A stretch of DNA of 58,585 nucleotides from Candidatus Peribacteraceae bacterium. GTDB taxonomy: Bacteria > Patescibacteriota > Gracilibacteria > Peribacterales > Peribacteraceae. Location of the stretch: NCBI GenBank assembly GCA_028711445.1, contig JAQTSD010000001.1, positions 1-58,585 of the forward strand, given 5' to 3'. The position numbers and the translations under genes were made by a program. This document shows positions 8,328-13,448 of the stretch, piece after piece (position 1 is the stretch's first letter; every line of letters starts with the position of its first letter). A model generated the notes under the pieces. The model had not been told where the DNA came from. It worked only from the letters and a program-made list of their open reading frames with translations, and made no database searches.

Positions 8328-9512
8328 TTATTTCCACACCACTCTCACAAACTTCCTCTTCCCCACCTGTACCACTACCCCCTTCGCCAAGGCTTCGGGG
8401 GTCAGGCCTTCCTCAATAGTCTGCTCTAAACTCTGAACAACTTTGTTATTCAACTTCACGCCACCCTGTTCGATGAGCCTGCGCGCTTCGGACTTACTGG
8501 GGGCGAGTTTTCCATTCACGATGGCATCGATGACAGTACTTCCCTTCTTCACGGAGAGTGTGGGCATATCCTCCGGTTGCTCCTTATTCTTGAAGACGCG
8601 GTCGAATGCCTCCGCCGCTTCCTTCGCCGCTTTTGCTCCGTGGTAGAGCGTCGTGATCTCGAGCGCGAGGCGGGCTTTGGCGTCTCGAGGTTTGCCTTTC
8701 AAGATGGCCTTCACCTCCTCCATCGGGACATCCGTGCAGCACTCGAAGTAGGTGGCCATGAGGTCGTCTTTCACGCTCATGACCTTGCCGTACATGTCGT
8801 TTGGCTCGTCCTCAAGGTAGATGCAGTTGTCGTAGGTCTTGCTCATCTTGCGGCCATCGGTGCCTTCGATGATCTTCACCGTGAGCACGAACTTCTCGCG
8901 CTTCGAGAGTGCTTTCTGAATAGTGCGGCCTGCGAGCATGTTAAATTCCTGATCCGTTGCACCCAGTTCGCAATCCACATCGAGGTGCGCGGAGTCGTAT
9001 CCTTGCAGTAGCGGATAGAGGAACTCATTCACGTAGATGGGTTTCCCCTCTTCTTCGCGCCGCACGAACATGTCGCGCTGCTCCATCTGCTGCTTCGTGA
9101 AGAAGCTTGCGAGTTTCAAAATTTCCTGCAACGAAAGCTTCTCCAACCATTCGTGATTGTAGACAACCCTGACTTTTTCAAAATCAAGGATTTTGCTCGC
9201 TTGTGCTTTGTAGGTTTTGAAGTTCTCCTCGATCTGCTCCCGCGTGAGGGGAACGCGCGCTTCGTCACGCCCGGACGGATCGCCGATCATGGCTGTGAAG
9301 CTCCCAATGAGAAAAATCACCTCGTGGCCGGCATCGGCGAATGCCTGCAGCTTGCGTAGGGGCACGGTGTGCCCGATGTGGAGCTTGGAGCCGGTGGGAT
9401 CCACTCCGTTATAAATTCGAAGGCGCTTGCCGGAGGCGAGCTTCGCCTTGGCGAGATCTTCGGGAATCACTTTTGCGACGGCGCGGGTGAGGAGTTCATC
9501 GATCGGCGTCAT
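8328..9512 (-). CDS. tyrS: Tyrosyl-tRNA synthetase
   Basis: 394 residues from the ATG at 9512. A longer frame up to 9647 exists, but a TATGCT -10 box at 9525-9520 lies seven nucleotides before 9512 and the extra residues are not TyrRS-like. Class I synthetase signatures are clear: RIYNGVDPTGSKLHIGHTVP holds the HIGH motif, GTDGRKMSKTYDN the KMSKS loop, and DCELGATDQEFNMLAGR is a typical TyrRS block. The C-terminal S4 RNA-binding domain (about residues 330-394) contains SKSEARRLIEQGGVKLN. It charges tRNA-Tyr in the cytoplasm. It is monocistronic. Confidence 0.95.
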   Translation of the reverse strand: MTPIDELLTRAVAKVIPEDLAKAKLASGKRLRIYNGVDPTGSKLHIGHTVPLRKLQAFADAGHEVIFLIGSFTAMIGDPSGRDEARVPLTREQIEENFKTYKAQASKILDFEKVRVVYNHEWLEKLSLQEILKLASFFTKQQMEQRDMFVRREEEGKPIYVNEFLYPLLQGYDSAHLDVDCELGATDQEFNMLAGRTIQKALSKREKFVLTVKIIEGTDGRKMSKTYDNCIYLEDEPNDMYGKVMSVKDDLMATYFECCTDVPMEEVKAILKGKPRDAKARLALEITTLYHGAKAAKEAAEAFDRVFKNKEQPEDMPTLSVKKGSTVIDAIVNGKLAPSKSEARRLIEQGGVKLNNKVVQSLEQTIEEGLTPEALAKGVVVQVGKRKFVRVVWK

Positions 9513-9752
9513 GCTTGCCAGCATAGCAGCGGCATGCGCAGAAGAGTAGACCGTCGAAGTCCCTTGTTTATAGGCATACAATAGCTGGAAGATCATTCCA
9601 TCTTTCCCTGCACTCTCATGGATCGATTTCCGACTTCCCTCCTCCATTAGGTGTATCCGGAATGATGTGGAACGCCGGCATCTACAAGACGTATCCGAGC
9701 GGCGAGGCTCTGCGAAAGAGTTGGGAGGCGTACCGCGTACAGCTGCGAGCCG

Positions 9753-12700
9753 CTACTTTGAAATCGGATGATTGTCCTCCGCAGTCGCCTCCTCAAGCGG
9801 AATCATCTCCGCAATAGCGAGGATCGCCGGATCCATTCCGAGTGTGCGAGCGACCGCGATGGCCTGCGATGGTTGGTGACCTGTTTGTTTGAGGTAGTCG
9901 AAGGAGAGAGTCCCGTCTGCATTCAACTGCGTATGGAAGTGATGTGCGGAAGCGCATTCGGGATGTGCCGCCGTGAAGGCATCGATGAACTGGTGGTGGT
10001 GCGACGCCATGTACAGGCGATGTCCTTTCCCGAGAAGATGGCTGCAGACGCCGTAGCTTAAGGCTCCCTGATACTTCGGGGAGGTGGTGGAGAATGCTTC
10101 GTCCACGCCGAAGAAGGTGTGCCCTTGCTGCGTCCTCTCGCTCAAGCGTCTCCAGTGCATCACCTCGTTGCCAAACGCGCTCAAGTTTTCGTCTTCGTTC
10201 GCCTGCACGCGGTCCAGATAAACGACGCTCTCATGTACGGGCGTGGTCATGGAAGCGGCAGGTGCGTGTCCGGTGGCTTGCGCGGAGAGGAGTGCGAGGG
10301 AGACCTTCTTGATGTCGAACGTCTTGCCGGACATATTCGCGCCGGTGGCCAGTTGCACCCGCTGTTCTCCGGCGAATGTGCAGTCGTTGCGCACCTGTTC
10401 TTCTTTCGGTTTGGTGACGCTCCAACCCCCCTCGATGGCCAGCTCTCCGGTATCATTGAAGGCGACGCGGCAGTAGCCTTCCTCCTTCATGGTCCGTGCG
10501 AACGCGAGGATGGCGGAGAGCGTTGTGATTTCATCGCGTATCCAATCGAGCGTCCGGTTATTCGCATTCTGGCACCATGCATCTTGCATCTTCGAGTAGT
10601 GGTGTTGGTCTGCCGATTGTTCGGCTGCGATCTGCTCGAACATGATCCGGAGTTCTGCTCCACTTCTTTTGCCGTTCAAGAATGTATCGAAGATACTCTC
10701 GAGATAGTGCGAGAGGCGGTGCAGATGAACGGAGTCGTATGAGCGCAGGCATTGCACCAGCTCGTCGACGGCGGAGCCGTCTCGCAATAGATGCTCGAGA
10801 ACTTGGATAAGGATGCCGTCTCTGCGGATGATGAAGATATCATCCTTGGTGACTTTCTGGAAAGTGTCGTACATCCGTGCGATGTGCGTACGGACGCGTC
10901 CGGTATCGCAGGAGCGAAGCGCAAGTGGTCGAATGTGCGGGGAGAGCTTCGTCACGATGCGATCGACGACGGCGAGCATGGGCTCCTTGCAGCTGTGATA
11001 GGGGTGCTCCTCCTTGCATGGGATGCGCGCAACGGCGTATGCCTCTCGAACCGGCCGGAAGCAGCGATCGAGTACTTCGGCTTGGTCTGTTCGAGGATCA
11101 ATCATGGCGGAAATCCTTTCCTCCAGGCTGTTTTCGCATTCCGCTTGGAGAGCACAGATGCGCGTGAGGTCGGCCATATCCCTCTCCACGCCAATCGCTG
11201 TGAGATCGAGGGAGAGCAGGTCGGCGTTGAGGGCGATGACTTCCAGAAGCAATTGGCCGTCGAGAGCCTTGAATCCCAGATCCACCCTGTCGCCGAGGAA
11301 ATGTTCCGCGCATCCTTTGAAGAGGTGCTCGTTGAATGCGATGAGGCACTGTGCGTCGCAGCGTTCCGCCGCCCAGAGCAGCGCCCAGACGTTCTGGACG
11401 GCGTTTGTGAGATCCTGATTGCGGTCTCCCTCCATGAGGGCGTCGTACATCTTCTGACGCTCGAGAAGTTCTTTCGTGTCACCTGTCGCCCCCTCGAAGA
11501 GGAGCGCCTTGGTGCACTTCTGGAAGGCCTGTGGCTGCCCGGGCATGAGCGTGTGATCCACGTGGTACCGCAGTTCCGGATCGTTGCTCAATTGAAGGAA
11601 GAAGGGGTGGTCCCTGAGTGCCTTCCATTCGCGTGCTTCATCGGTGTCCCGTACTTTCCGGGCGTGGTTGCAGCGGTCATCTTCAGTGAAGCACCAGTCG
11701 AGGCGTCGGTAGCTCTCCCCGTGCCATTTCTGTTGTTGTGTGATGACCATTTCGTCCGCGTACGGGAGGAACATGCGCAGCGAGCCTGATTGGCTCTTGA
11801 GGGCTTCGCGTTCTTCGGGGCTGTAAGCGGTGATGGGGGGGAGGTGGAGCGGAGGAGTGTTCGCGGGGAGGTGCTCGCGACGCAGGTAGGCATCCGCCGC
11901 GTCCGTCACCTCCGACGGCATGCCCATGCGGCGCGCAACTTCGATGGCGTGCGATTCGTCGATCCCCTCCTCGATCTTGTAGAGAAAATCGATATCGCCG
12001 TTCGGTTTCGTCCCTGTGCGGAAGTGGTGTATGCCGCAGTCAGCCATCCGGGCGCATCGTGCGAGGAATTGCTCGTTGTGGTTCGCCATCATGAGGCGTG
12101 CCCCGCGATTCTGCAGGTATGTGAGGAGTCCCACGCAGAGGCGGTACTGATCCTCTGGTGACGTGGTGGAAGCGAATTCGTCGCTCAAGACGTACGGGCG
12201 ACCGCGGCATGCTGCGATGCCTGCTTGTAACTGGTTCACCTCCTTGCCGAATGCGCTTAGGTCGTGCGGCGCGTCCGTCGAGGCGCGGTCGAGGTAGACG
12301 AGGCTGTCATAGAGCACGGGGAAATTGCCGGACCGCGCAGACACATATCCGAATGATTGTGCCCAGCGGTGCATGGAAAGCTCGCGCCTGAGTGCGAATG
12401 ATTTCCCGGACATGTTTCCCCCACAGAGAATCGTCACGGGACGGTCGGCTGGCGCATCGTTCGGCACCTGCCGGATGTAATGATCGCCTTCTCTTCTGTA
12501 GCTGTACGCCTTCTTCTCTTTAAGTGCATTCCATCCCCCGTGGTAGTCGCGTGGCTGCGCGGAATCGAATGTCGCTCTTCCAAATCCTTCATTCATGACA
12601 TGCACGGCAGCGCTGAGAATCGCTCCGGCTTTCACGATGTCGCCCGTGATCCCGCTCACTCTCTTCTCTAGTGTATGGAGCCCTTGCAGCGATGGGTCTG

Positions 12701-13448
12701 CCAGCGCGTCTTGTAAGATGCTCTCCGGGGTGATGGAGGGAAGATCTTGTATGCTCTCAAGCAAGTGTGTGCCGATTTCCTGCAGAACCGGATGAGTTTG
12801 ATCACGCAGAGACTGTGTAAAATCGAGCATCATCTGCTTACCTTGCCCGGCGGCGTGCAGGGATTGCAGCCCCGGTATATCTTTCGGGCGATCATCGTCG
12901 GTGGAGACATCTTCATGCAGGAACGTACGAACGGATTCAGGATTGACGCCACATTCCAAGAGTTGTTCGATGCGCTTCTTTGGTCTCTTGCCATGGAGCA
13001 GTGCATGCTCTTGTTCCTGCTTGTCGGAATCAAGAAGCGCATGGAGAGCCCTCGACAGTGTGTAGGCCTTCTCGAGATGCCTGCAGAGTCGCTGGAGCAG
13101 GTTGACATTGCTTATGAGGAGGCGGATCACTTCCTGTCGTGACCTGATCACTTGAGGATCGAGGCAGGGGTGGTCGAGCATGTCCTCGACGAGGGCATGT
13201 TCGCCTGCGGATCCGCTGAACTTCACATCATTTAATCCGTCCAGGTGGTAGCCATAACTTGGTTGAGCTTCCGAGAGCGTCGTCACGGTTGCGGCGTCGG
13301 AGTTATCGTAGAAAACGTCGAGTCCGTGCTGGCGGATGGGCGTGGTTTCCGCTTGTGAAGCGGGTGAGGATTGCTGTTCGCGTTGTGCAGCGAGGGCAGC
13401 GAAGCTCGTGACTTTCTCCCATTGCAGTGCGGGTGGTTTCTTTTCCAT
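9753..13448 (-). CDS. Giant protein with two MutS-family ATPase domains in one chain
   Basis: 1231 residues in two related halves. Half 1 has a MutS core-like helical region (ALVEDMLDHPCLDPQVIRSR, about residue 85 on), Walker A GGNMSGKS near residue 342, YLDR...LSAFGKE, and Walker B VLSDEFASTTSP with Asp423-Glu424, then ANHNEQF. Half 2 repeats this: GANMSGKT near 1036, YLDR...LSAFGNE, FFGVDEAFSTTSP with Asp1116-Glu1117, then ASHHHQF. MutS works as a dimer with paired ATPase sites, so this chain could fold as an intramolecular dimer. I see no mismatch-reading domain I with its Phe-x-Glu, no MutS2 Smr domain, and the usual GRGTST after Walker B is replaced by STTSP. A DNA-clamp role is inferred; mismatch repair cannot be assumed. 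Confidence 0.85.
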   Translation of the reverse strand: MEKKPPALQWEKVTSFAALAAQREQQSSPASQAETTPIRQHGLDVFYDNSDAATVTTLSEAQPSYGYHLDGLNDVKFSGSAGEHALVEDMLDHPCLDPQVIRSRQEVIRLLISNVNLLQRLCRHLEKAYTLSRALHALLDSDKQEQEHALLHGKRPKKRIEQLLECGVNPESVRTFLHEDVSTDDDRPKDIPGLQSLHAAGQGKQMMLDFTQSLRDQTHPVLQEIGTHLLESIQDLPSITPESILQDALADPSLQGLHTLEKRVSGITGDIVKAGAILSAAVHVMNEGFGRATFDSAQPRDYHGGWNALKEKKAYSYRREGDHYIRQVPNDAPADRPVTILCGGNMSGKSFALRRELSMHRWAQSFGYVSARSGNFPVLYDSLVYLDRASTDAPHDLSAFGKEVNQLQAGIAACRGRPYVLSDEFASTTSPEDQYRLCVGLLTYLQNRGARLMMANHNEQFLARCARMADCGIHHFRTGTKPNGDIDFLYKIEEGIDESHAIEVARRMGMPSEVTDAADAYLRREHLPANTPPLHLPPITAYSPEEREALKSQSGSLRMFLPYADEMVITQQQKWHGESYRRLDWCFTEDDRCNHARKVRDTDEAREWKALRDHPFFLQLSNDPELRYHVDHTLMPGQPQAFQKCTKALLFEGATGDTKELLERQKMYDALMEGDRNQDLTNAVQNVWALLWAAERCDAQCLIAFNEHLFKGCAEHFLGDRVDLGFKALDGQLLLEVIALNADLLSLDLTAIGVERDMADLTRICALQAECENSLEERISAMIDPRTDQAEVLDRCFRPVREAYAVARIPCKEEHPYHSCKEPMLAVVDRIVTKLSPHIRPLALRSCDTGRVRTHIARMYDTFQKVTKDDIFIIRRDGILIQVLEHLLRDGSAVDELVQCLRSYDSVHLHRLSHYLESIFDTFLNGKRSGAELRIMFEQIAAEQSADQHHYSKMQDAWCQNANNRTLDWIRDEITTLSAILAFARTMKEEGYCRVAFNDTGELAIEGGWSVTKPKEEQVRNDCTFAGEQRVQLATGANMSGKTFDIKKVSLALLSAQATGHAPAASMTTPVHESVVYLDRVQANEDENLSAFGNEVMHWRRLSERTQQGHTFFGVDEAFSTTSPKYQGALSYGVCSHLLGKGHRLYMASHHHQFIDAFTAAHPECASAHHFHTQLNADGTLSFDYLKQTGHQPSQAIAVARTLGMDPAILAIAEMIPLEEATAEDNHPISK

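Follow-up and report, generated by a model that had tools for sequence, protein, structure and literature searches.

A tandem MutS-type ATPase from Candidatus Peribacteraceae, a candidate single-chain MutS pseudo-dimer outside mismatch repair

The DNA analysed here (the window) is a 58,585 nucleotide stretch of contig JAQTSD010000001.1 from a Candidatus Peribacteraceae bacterium (assembly GCA_028711445.1; positions 1 to 58,585, forward strand), whose 1.25 Mb genome is 99.7% complete on 45 contigs. Between tyrS and rluD it carries a minus-strand gene (9753..13448) that has an ATG start and encodes, in a single frame, a 1231 residue protein containing two MutS-type ATPase domains head to tail. 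The Pfam model MutS_V (PF00488) matched this protein twice in the genome search, at 60.1 and 44.7 bits against a curated cut-off of 30.2 (95.7 bits in total, E value 4.5e-27), and no other MutS_V match was found in the genome; this and the other genome-wide presence and absence claims below come from profile searches of whole genomes. The N and C halves share 33% identity across 273 residues (E value 4e-36). Foldseek comparison of the structure model described below returned MutS/MSH chains as the best PDB matches (probability 1.0), and a profile search of solved-structure sequences matched MutS-family chains with both halves. A previous reading, made from the sequence alone, had proposed two full MutS-type ATPase domains fused in 1231 residues; the two MutS_V matches bear this out, and the model and structure searches place both halves among MutS-type ATPases.

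The protein begins with a variable tail (residues 1-39, 13332..13448; this and all following features are on the minus strand), which is poorly conserved in the alignment and was excluded from structure prediction. It is followed by the N-half helical lever/core, similar to MutS domain III (residues ~83-287, 12588..13202), predicted from the helices of an AlphaFold2 (AF2) model and from a weak Pfam MutS_III match (residues 87-213, 23.1 bits, under the cut-off of 34.1). This region contains an RQ helix, and R104 is invariant in the alignment. The N-half domain V ATPase (residues ~338-522, 11883..12437, with the 60.1 bit PF00488 match at 11883-12431) has the Walker A motif GGNMSGKS (residues 343-350, 12399..12422), the signature LSAFG (residues 397-401, 12246..12260; DLSAFG from 396), Walker B SDE (residues 422-424, 12177..12185) followed by STTSP, and the His switch H457 (12078..12080; ANHNEQF from 455), which is invariant in the alignment. 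An inter-half linker with a small beta element in the AF2 secondary structure and a lower predicted local distance difference test score (pLDDT; residues ~523-638, 11535..11882) leads to the C-half lever/core of the AF2 model (residues ~639-990, 10479..11534), in which the motifs ELLERQ (660-665) and YDSVHLHRL (904-912) are conserved in the alignments. The C-half domain V ATPase (residues ~993-1215, 9804..10472, with the 44.7 bit PF00488 match at 9804-10352) repeats the set, with Walker A GANMSGKT (residues 1036-1043, 10320..10343), the signature LSAFG (residues 1089-1093, 10170..10184; NLSAFG from 1088), Walker B VDE (residues 1115-1117, 10098..10106) followed by STTSP, and the His switch H1150 (9999..10001; ASHHHQF from 1148), aligned to the H457 column. 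Walker A and Walker B are separated by 79 residues in each half. All motifs of the sequence-only reading were thus located in both halves, its estimate of about 80 residues between the Walker motifs was accurate, and its statement that mismatch-reading, Smr and nuclease domains are missing agrees with Pfam scans of the window protein and, singly, of 16 relatives, which found no MutS_I, MutS_II, MutS_IV, Smr or nuclease domain.

Searches seeded with the window protein and with alignments of its relatives, counting full or partial tandem proteins, yielded a family of 19 proteins from 16 genomes including the window's (G and L numbers are our labels for genomes and loci). The closest carriers of the gene belong to Candidatus Peribacteraceae/Peribacteria; within Peribacteraceae these are the window genome, G083, G016 (where the gene is split over two contig ends) and G063. 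Other Patescibacteria, code-25 lineages included, also carry it, with G112, G159, G190 (isolate LH_M95), G227 and G284 representing other families of the same class. Beyond these, the gene was found in the Saganbacteria phylum (G305, G674 with three copies, and G712 with two adjacent copies) and in Omnitrophota (G307, G391, G423 and G617). Three carrier genomes are readable only with genetic code 25 (TGA = Gly). MutS_V was found in all 17 members scanned, with two copies in each of the five relatives examined in full, and every complete member gave two matches to half-protein hidden Markov models.

Apart from the unusual layout, nothing speaks for an assembly artefact or a chance joining of two adjacent mutS-like genes, and the probability of such an origin is negligible. 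Seventeen proteins have intact single frames in independent assemblies that span several phyla and two genetic codes, and the tandem layout is kept in 16 genomes. In addition, comparison of the G083 and G016 copies gave a ratio of nonsynonymous to synonymous substitution rates (dN/dS) of 0.10, indicating a protein in use and under purifying selection. Assembly error was therefore rejected; the sequence-only reading had itself named two genes joined in this way as the case that would undo it, and the intact homologues in unrelated assemblies exclude it. Literature searches for tandem or fused MutS found nothing relevant, although most subscription journals lie outside their coverage, so this is not proof; within that limit it matches the earlier remark that the layout fits no described family. 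We conclude that the tandem protein represents a real family, a new variant within the known MutS superfamily that is apparently undescribed.

The relationship between the two halves was examined with a maximum likelihood tree of half-proteins, for which support is given by the Shimodaira-Hasegawa-like approximate likelihood ratio test (SH-aLRT) only and which did not include true MutS2 sequences. The 18 N halves group together in a single clade (SH-aLRT 82), as do the 18 C halves (84), and the two clades are sisters (98). With the longest branches removed, support was 98 for the N clade, 93 for the C clade and 98 for both together, and a repeat tree agrees. The tree was rooted at the midpoint; the sister relation of N and C holds for the unrooted tree. 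The combined group is separate from MutS1, KamC and small MutS relatives, and the branching within the N clade largely parallels that within the C clade, which is the expected outcome if the two halves stayed joined after a single duplication. Because N halves and C halves form sister clades, the sequence comparison indicates that the fusion arose by a single internal duplication. No unfused two-gene precursor was found among 80 GTDB loci.

Both catalytic sets are conserved across the family. The five catalytic columns (Walker A K, signature S, Walker B D-E and switch H) are intact in both halves of 15 of the 17 proteins for which both halves could be read. AF2 prediction of window residues 40-1231 from a 17-row alignment gave a pLDDT of 84.3 and a predicted template modelling score (pTM) of 0.76, and L204, a homologue with 29% identity to the window protein in the alignment, gave 81.1 and 0.72. 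Helical regions precede both ATPases in the two models, which share one order of elements: helical region, ATPase, short linker, longer helical region, ATPase. A pTM above 0.7 for two halves of similar size suggests that the predicted halves hold a defined mutual arrangement. One of the two deviant proteins, L203 (from G423), has lost the Walker A Lys, Walker B Asp and switch His of its C half together with the signature Ser of its N half, and retains the N-half Walker A/B/His and the C-half signature Ser. If the ATP sites span the N-C interface, one whole composite site has gone and the other has been kept; pairing of N with N and of C with C between two chains would not be expected to give such a split. 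We therefore consider it likely that the composite ATP sites are intramolecular.

Taken with the domain anatomy, this leads us to favour, on balance, a single-chain MutS pseudo-dimer that acts as an accessory ATP-driven clamp or remodeller and not as a mismatch-repair MutS. A minimal MutS core, made up of the helical lever/core domain III and the ABC-type ATPase domain V, would have been duplicated internally once and its two copies would have diverged, folding together in the manner of a MutS dimer. One ATP site would then consist of the N-half Walker A/B/His and the C-half signature Ser, and the other of the C-half Walker A/B/His and the N-half signature Ser, so that each LSAFG is predicted to complete the site of the opposite half. 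The resulting asymmetric two-site ATPase would open and close its levers around or against a substrate, in a protein that may move horizontally as an accessory function. The earlier proposal of a built-in heterodimer is thus the best reading of the divergent paralogous halves, the full motifs, the two AF2 models and the joint losses in L203; the part of it that concerns packing is a prediction. Several points weigh against the pseudo-dimer clamp. The co-decay is that of one protein, and the second deviant, L200, has lost the N-half signature Ser only. Dimer-like packing is deduced from pTM, an indirect measure, with shallow alignments (16-17 rows). No feature pointing to DNA binding was found: Pfam detected no clamp domain (MutS_IV), and the window protein is acidic (isoelectric point 5.7), the MutS1 controls being only slightly less so (6.0-6.6). 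This last difference does not discriminate, and the isoelectric point was rejected as a hint on DNA binding.

Membership of the established families was rejected, as scores were far below the cut-offs of their models: 88.8 against 641.7 (TIGR01070) and 112.7 against 480 bits (NF003810) for MutS1, 86.5 against 400 (TIGR01069) for MutS2, and 140.5 against 300 (NF052383) for KamC. The tandem protein shares with MutS1, MutS-alpha and MutS-beta the domain V ATPase with all its motifs and the C-terminal domain V helices, together with a predicted lever domain III, and these proteins provide its best Foldseek matches. In contrast to them, it has no detected mismatch-reading domain I, connector II or clamp IV, and its two cores are in one chain rather than two. 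Loss of domains I and II is common to the tandem protein, MutS2 and KamC. UvrA and ABCE1 likewise have two ABC-type ATPase modules per polypeptide; the likeness is one of analogy only, as both belong to different ABC families and lack the MutS lever architecture.

The four Peribacteraceae carriers have no MutS_V protein besides the tandem one, as might be expected if a reduced mismatch-repair MutS had replaced MutS1 there. Such a replacement is nevertheless very improbable and already largely refuted. The mismatch-reading domain I and the connector domain II are missing, and MutL (PF01119) was not found in the six Peribacteraceae genomes tested, four of them carriers. Across the window's GTDB family only four of 74 genomes have any MutS_V protein, in each case the tandem protein, so that the remaining 70 live without one. 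Outside Peribacteraceae, all 12 carriers also possess a MutS1 of ordinary type, and MutL is present in all 11 of those tested. The replacement was rejected on the missing MutL, the absence of the gene from most of the family and the MutS1 kept by the other carriers; the lack of mismatch-reading parts and of a tie to MutL also argues that the tandem protein is not a mismatch-repair MutS. Where the sequence-only reading had offered a DNA clamp, repair or defence protein, classical mismatch repair is accordingly argued against. As a separate observation, these counts suggest that the window's GTDB family manages without mismatch repair of the MutS-MutL type.

MutS2 consists of lever and ATPase, the layout predicted for each half of the tandem protein, and likewise lacks domains I and II; it works as a dimer whose ATPase splits stalled ribosomes (PMC10897456), and it is among the best solved-structure matches of the tandem protein. 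A factor that splits or remodels stalled ribosomes, built as a one-chain counterpart of the MutS2 dimer, would also suit the lack of any MutS2-level match in the 18 genomes tested and of any other MutS_V protein in the window genome; in function it would recall the twin-ATPase ABCE1. We nevertheless regard this role as unlikely. Binding of collided ribosomes by MutS2 relies on KOW and SMR domains (PMC10897456), neither of which is present in the fused protein, the MutS2 model score is low as given above, and absence from 70 of 74 family genomes would be odd for a housekeeping role. KamC, a MutS-type ATPase named as reactivase of lysine 5,6-aminomutase, is another minimal domain III plus V protein, and its model is the best-scoring named NCBIfam model for the tandem protein. 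A protein-remodelling ATPase of this kind is improbable, however: 140.5 bits is far under the KamC cut-off, KamC has a single core and forms a separate clade in the tree (98-99), and the genes that flank four KamC loci have no true equivalents next to the tandem genes, where the one match was weak and unrelated. As for the substrate of the favoured pseudo-dimer, a nucleic-acid structure such as a junction, a stalled fork or invading DNA is placed first, as a tentative suggestion, ahead of a ribosome or other protein. Among MutS heterodimers, MSH4-MSH5 is reported to stabilise Holliday junctions (PMC3828297).

The distribution of the gene is patchy. In a sample of 380 genomes from the window's phylum, the tandem protein was found only in the window genome and in G159, and it is therefore rare. 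In G001, of the same genus as the window genome, tyrS directly abuts rluD and the tandem gene is absent from an otherwise collinear block, whose members (u654, u380, u318, u172, fecR, X370, pbp and glmS) are 73-98% identical between the two genomes. G063 has the tandem gene elsewhere in this block, with pbp on one side and glmS on the other. The window tyrS (8328-9647) is 61% identical to that of G001 and 67-68% identical to those of two genomes of another genus; judging from these identities, it may have been exchanged together with the tandem gene. Tree groupings cross phyla, with one G674 copy grouping with code-25 Patescibacteria. Patchy distribution and different insertion sites point to horizontal movement of the gene.

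The same features would suit a role in defence or conflict, in which the protein would sense or block foreign DNA; such a role is compatible with a single-chain dimer. The G083 copy (L028:762-9583) lies near an OLD/GajA/PtuA-like ATPase-TOPRIM gene, a terminase small subunit and a resolvase/recombinase, G159 has a TrwB-like coupling protein nearby, and in G712 (L207:5673-15166) the two tandem MutS genes flank a Fic-domain gene. These neighbours are suggestive of mobile or conflict genes, their enrichment being insufficient to claim an association. PADLOC gave no match for the tandem protein, no tandem MutS carrier was found in phage, plasmid and IMG/VR collections, and most carriers have the gene amid housekeeping genes. 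All-against-all BLAST of the flanking genes of 18 loci found no recurrent partner, only a housekeeping block common to two Peribacteraceae and a few scattered pairs; a conserved operon partner was thus rejected, and the search for conserved neighbours urged by the sequence-only reading gave no recurrent one. Of that reading's defence option there remain the few carriers near defence or mobile genes, and we hold this specific role to be doubtful.

Head-to-tail duplication of the MutS core is not confined to the family of the window protein. Omnitrophota proteins of ~1,350-5,000 aa (L291-L297, from G502, G391, G617, G439 and G492) contain separate tandem MutS-type ATPases; in six of these proteins the N halves and the C halves make up sister clades, L297 looks like a further duplication, and several have signal-peptide-like starts. 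Another tandem MutS pair is found in two genomes of the Saganbacteria phylum (L208:8193-11318 and L209:2-2863), with DEPG(R/K)GT-like Walker B motifs and a separate duplication in the tree (96-99). Like the window protein, both groups have two MutS-type domains head to tail per open reading frame; they differ in their independent duplications, in the surroundings of Walker B and, often, in their ~1,350-5,000 aa length. These separate events make the architecture a recurrent one rather than a curiosity. It is conceivable, if short of an even chance, that the family of the window protein is an undescribed, horizontally moving set of single-chain MutS dimers with a job outside mismatch repair (mobile-DNA conflict, or nucleic-acid or protein remodelling), the MutS core having been duplicated head to tail at least three independent times in candidate-phylum bacteria. 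If so, the MutS dimer has repeatedly been hard-wired into one asymmetric chain. MutS is a textbook case of composite ATP sites split between two chains, and in a homodimer any mutation falls in both sites at once, which makes the built-in asymmetry hard to study; with a natural one-chain MutS, either site could be altered while the other is left intact. The presence of a MutS lineage in a family in which no other part of mismatch repair was found also points to a MutS function outside repair.

Two further proteins deserve mention. An 1823 aa tandem MutS of Omnitrophota (L033:2500-8307) and its neighbour (L033:8261-13732), which contains an epimerase-like stretch, resemble each other in a leader region that looks like a signal peptide; export of an ATP-dependent MutS would be puzzling. 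The BFVD match Q9EMR9 (entomopoxvirus AMV130, 1384 aa) aligns over nearly the whole model (1388 columns, E value 8e-7) with a poor root mean square deviation, and AMV130 might be another two-core protein.

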